A stretch of 64,000 nucleotides of DNA. Source: Agaribacillus aureus (GTDB lineage: Bacteria > Bacteroidota > Bacteroidia > Cytophagales > Cyclobacteriaceae). Below are positions 5,739-34,713 of this stretch, in pieces. The notes beneath the pieces are model-generated. The model was not told where the DNA came from. It was given only the letters and a program-made list of their open reading frames with translations, and did no database searches. A program made the position numbers and the translations under genes. How positions within the stretch are numbered: position 1 is the stretch's first letter; every line of letters begins with the position of its first letter. Location of the stretch: the NCBI GenBank assembly GCA_030442055.1, contig JAUJEB010000006.1, positions 372,001 through 436,000 on the forward strand, read 5' to 3'.

Positions 5739-7007
5739 ATGTTTAATGCAAATCATCCTTTGGCTGAACGGTTGCGGCCGACCACTTTGAAAGAGGTGGT
5801 GGGACAAGAACATCTGGTGGGGGATAACGGCGTCTTGCAGCGTGCTGTGAAAGTGGGTATTATCCCTTCCATGATCCTTTGGGGACCTCCTGGCGTGGGA
5901 AAAACCACTTTGGCCAACATTCTTGCTACTCATATTAATGCCGCATTTTTCACACTAAGTGCCGTTAGCGCCGGTGTGAAAGAGGTAAGGACTGTGATTG
6001 AAAAAGCCAAGGGGTATCCCAAAACGATTTTGTTTATTGATGAAATTCATAGATTCAGTAAATCGCAGCAGGATGCGCTTTTAGGTGCAGTTGAGAAGGG
6101 TATCATTACCCTGATCGGAGCAACAACGGAAAACCCCTCATTTGAGGTTATCTCCGCACTCCTTTCCCGGTGTCAGGTCTATACACTTAAAGCATTGGAG
6201 GAGTCAGATTTGTTGAAACTGGTAGATAGGGCTTTAAAGACCGATGAAAAATTACAAGCCAAGAAAGTAGACATCAAAGAGCATACCTCGTTGTTGAATA
6301 TTTCAGGTGGTGATGCCAGGAAATTGTTGAATTTACTGGAACTGGTAGTGGATGCCTTACCTGGCGATAGCATTGAAATTACCAATGACAATGTAAAGCA
6401 GATTGCCCAACAGCGGGTGGCTATTTATGATAAAAGTGGCGAGCAGCACTATGATATTATCTCAGCATTTATCAAATCTATCCGGGGTAGCGACCCCAAT
6501 GCTGCGGTGTATTGGTTGGCAAGGATGATAGAAGGCGGTGAAGACGTGAAATTCATAGCGCGCCGGTTGGTGATACTGGCTTCGGAAGATATTGGCAATG
6601 CTAATCCTACCGCCCTGGTACTCGCTACCAATGCCTTTCAGGCTGTCAATATGATTGGCTATCCGGAAGCGGAAATAATATTGTCGCAGTGCACAACATA
6701 TCTTGCCAGCTCACCGAAAAGTAACGCCAGCTATGTGGCTATAAAATCTGCTAAATCCCTGGTCAATAAAACGGGGGACCTGGCCGTGCCGCTACCGATA
6801 AGAAATGCACCGACCAAGTTGATGAAAAAGGAAGGCTATGGTGAGGGATATAAATATGCCCATGATCACCCCGGAAATTTTGTGGATATGGAATTCCTCC
6901 CGGAGGAGATAAAAGGTACTAAATTGTATGATCCCGGTGCCAATGCGAGGGAAAATGAGTTAAGGAAGCGACTGAAGGCTTTTTGGGGTAGCAAGTACCA
7001 ATACTAA
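5739..7007 (+). CDS. rarA: Replication-associated recombination protein A (RarA/MgsA AAA+ ATPase)
   Basis: Clamp-loader-like AAA+ ATPase acting at stalled replication forks. The 422-residue product starts with the family-typical [19 protein letters not shown]. Walker A is GPPGVGKT (49-56), Walker B is ILFIDE (97-102), sensor 1 is in [11 protein letters not shown], and the C-terminal MgsA domain contains [10 protein letters not shown] and a [11 protein letters not shown] segment close to the usual end. Length and order match the E. coli and yeast (Mgs1) homologues. It is a monocistronic gene divergent from the EamA transporter. Confidence 0.95.
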
Positions 7008-31856: not shown

Positions 31857-32207
31857 CTAAGAACCAAGCTTTTTGATTAACGCAAACAACATTTTGGAAA
31901 GTTCTTCGGATGCACAGTACAATTTGGAAAATTGATCTTCGGATATGATGTTTTCGTCTTTCCAGAAATCAAGAATTGCCACACATTCGAAAGTAGAACC
32001 TCTTGCTATCACATAAAAATTCTTTTTATCAGGTTTCGTAAACCTTCCCGATCCCTCTGCAATGTTAAGCATAATACTGAAAGCAGCCCGTTGTAATTGA
32101 TTCTTGTTTGAAGAATTGACATGGGTGATGGATTGCAATAATTTTTGTACACTGGAATTGAAGGTTTTTGCTTTGGCATATACTTCCAGCTTTTGGAAAT
32201 CAAACAT
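31857..32207 (-). CDS. Four-helix-bundle protein (23S rRNA intervening-sequence protein family)
   Basis: A 116-residue protein. The pattern FQKLEVYAKAKTF, then QLQRAAFSIMLNIAEGSGR and a second half with ARGSTFECVAILDFWK matches the S23/IVP four-helix-bundle family found free-standing in many Bacteroidota and also inside 23S rRNA intervening sequences. The molecular role is unknown. It begins about 100 bp downstream of the tmRNA gene on the same strand, with only the tmRNA terminator between. Confidence 0.85.
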   Translation of the reverse strand: MFDFQKLEVYAKAKTFNSSVQKLLQSITHVNSSNKNQLQRAAFSIMLNIAEGSGRFTKPDKKNFYVIARGSTFECVAILDFWKDENIISEDQFSKLYCASEELSKMLFALIKKLGS

Positions 32208-32986: not shown

Positions 32987-34099
32987 ATGGAAAACTTTGT
33001 AGTATCAGCAAGAAAATATCGGCCTGACAATTTTGATACGGTGGTGGGACAGGAGCATATTACGACGACCTTGAAAAACGCCATCGATAACAATCACCTT
33101 GCCCAGGCGTTACTTTTTTGTGGGCCACGAGGAGTCGGTAAAACCACCTGTGCCAGGATATTGGCAAAAATGGTGAACGGATTTGAAGATGACGATCCCG
33201 CTACCTCCTTAAATATCCACGAACTTGATGCTGCCTCCAATAATTCCGTTGACGATATCCGCAATTTGGTAGACCAGGTCAGGTATGCACCGCAATATGG
33301 TAAATTTAAGATTTATATCATCGACGAGGTGCACATGTTATCCAATGCAGCTTTTAACGCATTTTTGAAGACATTGGAAGAGCCTCCGGCCTATGCCATA
33401 TTCATATTGGCTACTACCGAAAAACACAAGATTATTCCTACGATCCTGTCCAGGTGCCAGATATTTGATTTCAACCGTATCCAGGTACAGGATATTGGTC
33501 GGCACTTGCAAAAAATCGCGGAACTTGAAAATATTGAGGCGGAGGAAGAAGCGTTACACCTGATAGCGCAAAAGTCAGATGGTGCTTTAAGAGATGCGCT
33601 GTCTATCTTTGATTTAATCGTTACTTTTTCGTCCGGGAACAAGTTGACCTACCAGGATACGATTAAAAATTTGCACATCCTGGATTACGATTATTATTTT
33701 AAAATGACGGATTTTTTGCTGGAGGAGGATGCTTCTCAGGCACTGCTAACGTTTGATGATATCTTGAAAAATGGTTTTGACGGCCATCAGTTTATAGTTG
33801 GCCTTGCCGAGCATTTTAGGAACCTGATGGTGTGCAAGGATCAGGCAACTGTAAAATTGCTGATGGTTAGTGATAATATCAAACAAAAATATGCCGACCA
33901 GGCAGTACGGGCTCCATTGTCCTTTTTATTATCTGCGTTAAACATCTCAAATCAGTGCGATATTCAATATAAGGCCAGCAAGAATCAAAGGCTGCATGTG
34001 GAACTCGGTCTGATGAAATTGGCCCATATTAATGCCGCCGTAAACCTGGTAGCACTCAATCAATCGGACCAGGAGCCATTAAAAAAAAAAGTAGTGTAA
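32987..34099 (+). CDS. dnaX: DNA polymerase III gamma subunit (zero-frame dnaX product)
   Basis: Without slippage translation ends at TAA 34097-34099, giving a 370-residue protein containing exactly the three AAA+ clamp-loader domains and none of the tau-specific region, equivalent to E. coli gamma. The last residues are L-K-K-K-V-V. Both forms are expected if the frameshift is programmed; if the A tract is a sequencing artefact, only the long form exists. Confidence 0.75.
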   Translation: MENFVVSARKYRPDNFDTVVGQEHITTTLKNAIDNNHLAQALLFCGPRGVGKTTCARILAKMVNGFEDDDPATSLNIHELDAASNNSVDDIRNLVDQVRYAPQYGKFKIYIIDEVHMLSNAAFNAFLKTLEEPPAYAIFILATTEKHKIIPTILSRCQIFDFNRIQVQDIGRHLQKIAELENIEAEEEALHLIAQKSDGALRDALSIFDLIVTFSSGNKLTYQDTIKNLHILDYDYYFKMTDFLLEEDASQALLTFDDILKNGFDGHQFIVGLAEHFRNLMVCKDQATVKLLMVSDNIKQKYADQAVRAPLSFLLSALNISNQCDIQYKASKNQRLHVELGLMKLAHINAAVNLVALNQSDQEPLKKKVV

Positions 34100-34713
34100 A
34101 AGATGAGCCTGCTCCCAGCCAGGAAAAACCCGTAACCAACCAGGATAATTCCGACCTTGTCACCAATCCGGATGCCATCCCACCTTCACCAGCCGCTTCG
34201 TCCAAGCCCGCTTCAGGAAAAAAGTTTAGTTTAAAACCTACCACTAAAATCCTTGATGCTGACACCATCCTCAAAAACCAGGATTCCGGGGAGGAAGAGG
34301 AGGAGAGGACTCCTGAAAATAAGGAGCCACTTCAACCTGAAGCCAACGAACCGGTGAAATTGAAGGAATTGCAACAATGCTGGAAGGAATTTGCTGAAAA
34401 AAGAAGGAATGAGGGTAAAGATGCGGAATATGTTTTACTGAATCAATCCATTGCGCTTAAGGAGGATCATGTCATTGAAATCAGACTAACCAATACCGTG
34501 CAGCAGCCAATATTGGATGGCTTGAGAACTGAATTGACCCAGCACCTGCGACATCATCTTAAAAATAATTTGATCACCCTGGAGGCAAAACTAGTTCAAA
34601 TGGAATCCAAGGAGATGATTTACACCGCCAGGGAAAAATTCAATTATCTGGCAGAGAAGCATCCCGAATTAAAAATATTAAAGGAGCGACTGGGACTGGA
34701 TACGGATTTTTAA
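32987..34713 (+). CDS. dnaX: DNA polymerase III tau subunit, made by -1 frameshift
   Basis: Clamp-loader subunit coupling the polymerase to the helicase. Read in zero frame to the A10 tract at 34081-34090 and then in the -1 frame to 34713, the product is ~575 residues: AAA+ domains I-III (Walker A GPRGVGKT at 46-53, DEVH at 113-116, sensor 1 LATTEK, sensor 2 GALRDALS), a Pro/Glu/Ser-rich linker, then a helical C-terminal domain (LKELQQCWKEFAEK to the end). The -1 frame is open without a break from the A tract. The zinc-binding cysteine module normally found between Walker A and the DAAS motif is absent (RILAKMVNGFEDDD goes straight to SLNIHELDAASNN). Confidence 0.85.
34071..34099 (+). promoter_or_regulatory. 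dnaX recoding site: AGGAG enhancer, A10 slippery tract, early stop
   Basis: AGGAG (34071-34075) lies 5 nt upstream of ten consecutive A residues (34081-34090), followed by GTAGTG and the zero-frame TAA (34097-34099). The layout resembles the E. coli dnaX signal, in which a Shine-Dalgarno-like sequence stimulates -1 slippage on A-rich codons. It would also allow polymerase slippage giving transcripts with 11 A, as in Thermus dnaX. A small CCTG/CAGG stem follows but is weak. Confidence 0.7.

Follow-up and report, generated by a model that had tools for sequence, protein, structure and literature searches.

The dnaX gene of Agaribacillus aureus, located within a 64,000-nt stretch of contig JAUJEB010000006.1 (the whole stretch is referred to below as the window), carries a run of ten A residues (A10) at which, judging from this junction and those of its relatives, both the gamma and the tau subunit are very probably generated by transcriptional slippage of RNA polymerase. 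The organization of the gene (Table 1) gives good support to the view that two products are formed, gamma through termination and tau through recoding.

According to the proposed mechanism, RNA polymerase would slip on A10 and produce mRNAs whose runs vary in length (A9, A10, A11, etc.). Translation of mRNAs with 10 (or 13) A residues would stop at the TAA codon at 34097 and that of mRNAs with 9 (or 12) at the TAG codon at 34092, both classes giving rise to gamma, i.e. the clamp loader alone. An mRNA with 11 (or 8) A residues would lead into the downstream frame and yield tau, with its linker and C-terminal domain; the latter presumably contacts the polymerase and the helicase, as in E. coli. 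The gamma:tau ratio would be set mainly by the spectrum of transcript lengths and not by a ribosomal pause. We infer the slippage event and the product ratio from the sequence, reading frames, stops and conservation, which were observed directly.

Table 1. Position of the dnaX gene and of the elements of its junction (numbering of the window).
Feature	Position	Strand	Remarks
dnaX	32987-34713	+	A. aureus window
Zero-frame ORF (gamma)	32987..34099	+	clamp-loader ATPase domains I-III; 370 aa; C-terminus LKKKVV
AGGAG, SD-like	34071..34075	+	also in the one congener read, unconserved in wider relatives; role doubtful
A10 slippery run	34081..34090	+	codons TTA AAA AAA AAA
TAG, third-frame stop	34092..34094	+	would close A9 (or A12) transcripts; sequence
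TAA, gamma stop	34097..34099	+	closes templated A10 (or A13) transcripts
-1 frame, linker and tau C-terminal domain	34087..34713	+	proposed read-out from A11/A8 transcripts

The dnaX junction of A. aureus

The elements of the junction described in an earlier note on this DNA were all found in the sequence: A10 is preceded by AGGAG at a distance of 5 nt and followed by the in-frame TAA 6 nt further on. The stops of the two non-tau frames lie 2 and 1 codons from the run. The -1 frame, for which the note had claimed more than 200 codons and a tau C-terminus, is indeed open from 34033 to 34710 (208 codons counted from 34087) and corresponds to positions 417-613 of the 614-position NCBIfam model PRK14971 (E 1.7e-25, 89.9 bits). 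Gamma corresponds to positions 1-381 of the same model (E 2.7e-199, 664 bits) and also matches TIGR02397 dnaX_nterm (E 5.8e-114). Since gamma and the -1 frame match one model in order, they are portions of a single protein; taken singly, both score below the cut-off set in PRK14971 for the whole protein (685 bits). It was also rightly noted that gamma ends with the clamp-loader core, its stop being placed 22 residues past the end of the Pfam domain III match (residue 348).

The designation of the putative tau domain is based on PRK14971 and not on its fold. An AlphaFold2 model of the region 34336-34710, built with 43 sequences, had a mean pLDDT of 81, a pTM of 0.57 and the order of elements HHEEHEHH. 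A fold search of the PDB with this model returned 996 matches, none at E<=0.001. Among other weak matches were chains 5fku_E of the E. coli polymerase complex (rank 22, E 0.11, TMq 0.34) and 5fkv_E (E 0.25), both of which we take to be tau. Sequence-based searches with the tau domain gave no Pfam match over the cut-off (the best being 0.034) and a single match to a PDB sequence profile, at E 0.59.

Only one full-length copy of dnaX is present in the genome, two other matches being weak (32% and 26% identity). The window also contains, at 5763-6401 (+), a clamp-loader-like ATPase (L002, perhaps RarA) with a 425-codon frame, 32% identical to DnaX residues 8-228. At 31857-32207 (-) there is a 116-aa ORF which we take to resemble the four-helix-bundle proteins of rRNA intervening sequences.

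Runs of at least ten A residues are rare: 27 distinct runs, including that of dnaX, were identified in the 9.39 Mb genome, and the chance of finding one on the sense strand of a given 60-nt junction, estimated from this count, is about once in 10^4. A second A10 run that splits a gene was observed at G000:C1:2058408-2058417 (-) (L145 and L330). In this case, a frame of 145 codons terminates 4 nt beyond the run, and the -1 frame, which encodes an AAA_16/NB-ARC-like NTPase with weak PADLOC matches to PDC-S73 and Avs4, continues for 500+ codons. This gene had no match at 1e-15 in the 117 other genomes of the family that were searched, and slippage, phase variation and decay are all possible explanations of its split.

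Homopolymers are prone to error, and one-ORF relatives with A11 exist (L005 and L027), so that the split might be ascribed to a sequencing or assembly error (the true run being A11) or to a decaying or broken gene. This explanation is highly improbable. In a congener (L004), 92% identical over gamma, a 34-nt segment extending from CAGGAG to AAAAGA, including A10 and the stops, is identical to that of the window, and the surrounding sequence differs; this agreement makes a sequencing slip unlikely. Moreover, 155 loci of the -1 layout have A10, and the tau frame is open and PRK14971-like.

An A11 run in the genome, which the earlier note had put forward as grounds for discarding its proposal, would not argue against two products. 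Locus L005, adjoining the window dnaX and L004 on the gamma tree, has A11 in a single ORF: tau lies in frame 0 and the other two frames are closed 2 and 1 codons from the run, which is the Thermus arrangement. The same junction is found in Splendidivirga corallicola (L033, 83% identity), a locus removed from the set as an exact duplicate.

Conservation of the A run and drift of the tau frame in Bacteroidia

Searches of the family (148 genomes) and the class (158 genomes) identified dnaX matches in 142 and 156 genomes, respectively. Among the 142 family matches there are 20 with a single open frame (566-723 codons) and 121 (including that of the window) that end at 354-424 codons; the remaining one is cut at 284. 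The loci read comprised the best 80 of 591 named loci, 114 of the 142 family loci (30, a further 80, and 4 found among the class loci) and 90 of the 156 class loci (30, five of them belonging to the family, and 60 fetched). The 60 were all listed loci with a frame below 470 codons that were not yet in the set, except the partial G289, together with 26 longer ones. Since short frames were chosen for this group, the proportion of split and single genes is not a fair sample of the class.

The resulting 279 loci included 13 exact duplicates. Of the remaining 266, an iterated profile detected the tau domain in 262; the other four (L060, L119, L202 and L297), in which the contig ends soon after gamma, were dropped. 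The junction run (in single-ORF genes, the longest in the linker) is A9-A12 in 245 of the 262 loci and A7 or A8 in 15, and a run of seven is missing in two loci. In three of the 245 (L282, L296 and L298), the A10 junction is followed by a tau frame broken 58-115 codons further on, perhaps through assembly slips or decay; these loci were excluded.

A run of at least nine A residues, as in slippage-type sites, together with an intact tau frame, is therefore kept in 242 of 262 Bacteroidia dnaX loci (207 with A10, 21 with A11, 11 with A9 and three with A12). Three Lys codons would be expected to be all AAA in a share of about 0.28, an estimate based on the AAA share of 0.65 in these genes. The longest A run in the gamma part of the 242 genes is nine in two, eight in six and shorter in 234.

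The frame of tau relative to gamma is not constant: it is -1 in 167 of the 242 loci, 0 in 69 and +1 in six. A FastTree tree of 257 gamma proteins, which takes in the 15 short-run loci, requires a minimum of 24 changes of layout. Within one genus, L009 (A9, tau +1) and L010 (A10, tau -1) differ in layout, and the 20 nt that follow the run are identical in the two. A homopolymer miscount is possible in the A9/+1 loci L009 and L293, both from single-contig genomes, and four +1 loci are left without them; the difference between frames 0 and -1 is based on 69 and 167 loci. Variation in the direction of the shift among orthologs has been taken as a sign of slippage, according to the available excerpts of PMC3711429.

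The principal alternative is a programmed -1 ribosomal frameshift on A_AAA_AAA, aided by AGGAG, i.e. the logic of E. coli dnaX with the roles reversed, tau being the shifted product. It predicts the right direction for the window, but the run is much longer than a heptamer, and some relatives require a shift of 0 or +1. The conservation of the run while the tau frame drifts favours slippage. One codon phase is common to 128 of the 155 A10 loci in the -1 layout; thus, the register is not free within clades, and this counts against slippage.

The two mechanisms also differ in the stops they require. Since a slipping polymerase makes all three frames, both non-tau frames are expected to be closed, whereas a single stop is sufficient for a -1 ribosomal shift. 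In 165 of the 242 loci, both of these frames are closed no more than four codons from the run (121/167 in the -1 layout, 38/69 in the 0 layout and 6/6 in the +1 layout). The same was true of 1253 of 20448 linker positions (about 6%), 138 of 2265 other runs of A5 or longer in the same genes and 531 of 9640 codon shuffles. When the set was thinned to one representative per 75% identity, both frames were closed in 39/65.

In the -1 layout, the third frame alone is closed within four codons in 132 of 167 loci (22/32 after thinning at 75%), compared to 4321 of 13417 linker positions and 2842 of 6680 shuffles. This frame would not be entered by a -1 ribosomal shift, and its closure by a nearby stop likewise favours slippage. 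The double-stop signal is weaker in single-ORF genes, 31 of 69 missing the four-codon mark for both stops and 16 missing one of six codons.

These observations suggest that split dnaX genes in Bacteroidia are intact and not broken, and that gamma is also made from many of the single-ORF genes. Outside the Bacteroidia, within the same phylum, A9 or A10 was detected near the junction in nine of 20 loci fetched from 74 genomes; the tau profile matched in 7/20 and the frames were mostly unsettled. The poly-A habit of dnaX is patchier there.

Shine-Dalgarno pairing, RNA folding and short-run relatives

The AGGAG located 5 nt before the run had been proposed in the earlier note to act as a Shine-Dalgarno (SD) enhancer. 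This motif is common to the congener L004 and would fit a ribosomal frameshift. Strict SD 5-mers were sought at -20 to -4 relative to the run, with controls at -60 and +30. They were found in 29 of 167 split (-1) genes (controls 1 and 7 of 167), five of 69 single-ORF genes (controls 0 and 5 of 69) and eight of 14 A7 loci (controls 0 and 0 of 14). An upstream SD conserved as in the E. coli type was not found, the strict 5-mer being missing in 138 of the 167 split relatives.

Pairing energy, calculated with a presumed anti-SD sequence, was below that of synonymous shuffles in split genes at offsets -9 and -8 (z -2.9 and -3.2) and of opposite sign upstream (z +3.0 to +4.6 at -20 to -18). In single-ORF genes, pairing just before the run differed from shuffles by under z 1. 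No match to RF00177 (16S rRNA gene) was obtained in the 9.39 Mb assembly, perhaps because repeats were lost in assembly. The share of GAG among Glu codons in the last six codons, compared to the whole gene, was 0.46 vs 0.39 in split and 0.51 vs 0.34 in single-ORF genes. The proposed enhancer is thus weakly supported at best, by a slight excess of pairing confined to split genes, and it is not conserved.

The earlier note had called an SD sequence notable in the Bacteroidota, whose ribosomes make little use of it for initiation. An SD at a recoding site would not be odd in itself, since prfB frameshift sites are common in Bacteroidia and one with AGGAGG occurs in this genome. In the available text of PMC8710568, such prfB sites are reported for 523 of 726 Bacteroidia genomes, as commonly as elsewhere, and the role of the anti-SD in initiation is described as much smaller in Flavobacterium johnsoniae than in E. 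coli. The prfB-type site identified here (L331; G000:C1:1103709-1103724 (+), AGGAGGTATCTTTGAC) contains AGGAGG and is identical in sequence to the +1 frameshift site given in that paper for prfB of F. johnsoniae.

The stem-loop of E. coli-type dnaX frameshift sites was not detected in the window, where the region after the run gave no folding signal (z 0.07). Neither was a hairpin signal obtained for split genes (mean z -0.42 for 173 loci, control -0.42). The corresponding values were -0.69 for single-ORF genes (control -0.37) and -1.19 for short-run loci (control -0.54).

Some of the short-run relatives do resemble ribosomal sites. In L243 and L259 (genus g14 of the same family), GGAGG is followed after 9 nt by GA A_AAA_AAG and a zero-frame stop, with tau at -1. 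This looks like a site of the E. coli heptamer type with the roles of gamma and tau reversed, and no hairpin signal was found after it (z -0.54 and -0.83). In 11 Pontibacter loci (L068, L070, L076, L084, L087, L090, L091, L093, L095, L099 and L101), a single-ORF dnaX contains A_AAA_AAA followed by GCTAA. An SD 5-mer lies upstream in 6/11, and folding in four loci (z -4.1, -2.6, -1.6 and -1.5) predicted a hairpin in some. The Pontibacter junction is a candidate ribosomal -1 site for the production of gamma. Of the other short-run loci, L044 has A7 and no SD 5-mer, L222 has A8, and L219 and L229 have no run of seven.

Taken as the main mechanism for the window, a -1 ribosomal frameshift is unlikely. 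It would be consistent with the weak SD excess in split relatives, the SD-type prfB site in the genome and the appearance of the A7 loci L243 and L259, but the third frame is closed too, no hairpin signal was obtained, and the strict 5-mer is missing in most split relatives. It was rejected in this role on account of the drifting frame, the third-frame stops and the missing hairpin signal, and a possible share was kept for it. Of the two mechanisms named side by side in the earlier note, slippage is thus the one favoured, and the claim of two products stands.

A mixed origin of the products, compatible with slippage, can be entertained tentatively: the ratio would be determined largely by the polymerase, with a small addition from ribosomes slipping on the A run. 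A runs are slippery for polymerase and ribosome alike, and slippage and frameshifting in dnaX are treated as interchangeable in the available excerpts of PMC3711429, but there is no sign of a selected ribosomal contribution beyond the weak SD excess.

Considering the class as a whole, it is likely that dnaX slippage is near-universal in Bacteroidia: the tau frame would drift, because slipped and unslipped transcripts both matter, the run and the double stops would be kept, and a few short-run lineages would rely on the ribosome. L243, L259 and the Pontibacter loci may represent a switch from polymerase to ribosome slippage. Whether these two processes replace each other at one gene in evolution is a testable question, and a further one is what gamma is for across a whole bacterial class.

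Comparison with known dnaX systems

Genes of this kind have already been published, and a single locus adds little. Antonov et al. (2013) described 17 two-ORF dnaX genes, nine of them with A10, and proposed slippage; three two-ORF species, with A9, A8 and A7, are named in the available excerpts of that paper (PMC3711429). The window shares with these genes the two ORFs, the -1 relation at the DNA level, A10 and tau made by recoding, its gamma ORF ending just after A10 with tau in the -1 frame. We presume that the three named species belong to the Chlorobi. PMC3711429 was the sole paper found to join dnaX, slippage and Bacteroidetes, and none was found for dnaX, slippage and Bacteroidota, in a search that mostly left out subscription journals. 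The literature available suggests that the novelty lies in the breadth of the survey, the drift of the frame, the test for double stops and the short-run lineages, whose junctions resemble ribosomal sites.

The same two products are obtained from one gene in E. coli, by a -1 frameshift at A_AAA_AAG with an SD and a stem-loop (available excerpts of PMC5009743 and PMC3711429). There, gamma is the shifted product and the site is a heptamer with its two stimulators, whereas in the window the run is long and no hairpin signal was obtained. The accessible part of PMC5009743 also mentions bacteria that make tau by the shift.

Another parallel is dnaX of Thermus thermophilus, for which excerpts of PMC1088944 and PMC5009743 describe slippage on A9, the other frames being closed by nearby stops. 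Both genes have a slippery A run, near stops in the other frames and two subunits encoded by one gene. They differ in which product is templated: in T. thermophilus, as described there, tau is templated and gamma arises from slipped transcripts, whereas in the window it is gamma that is templated.
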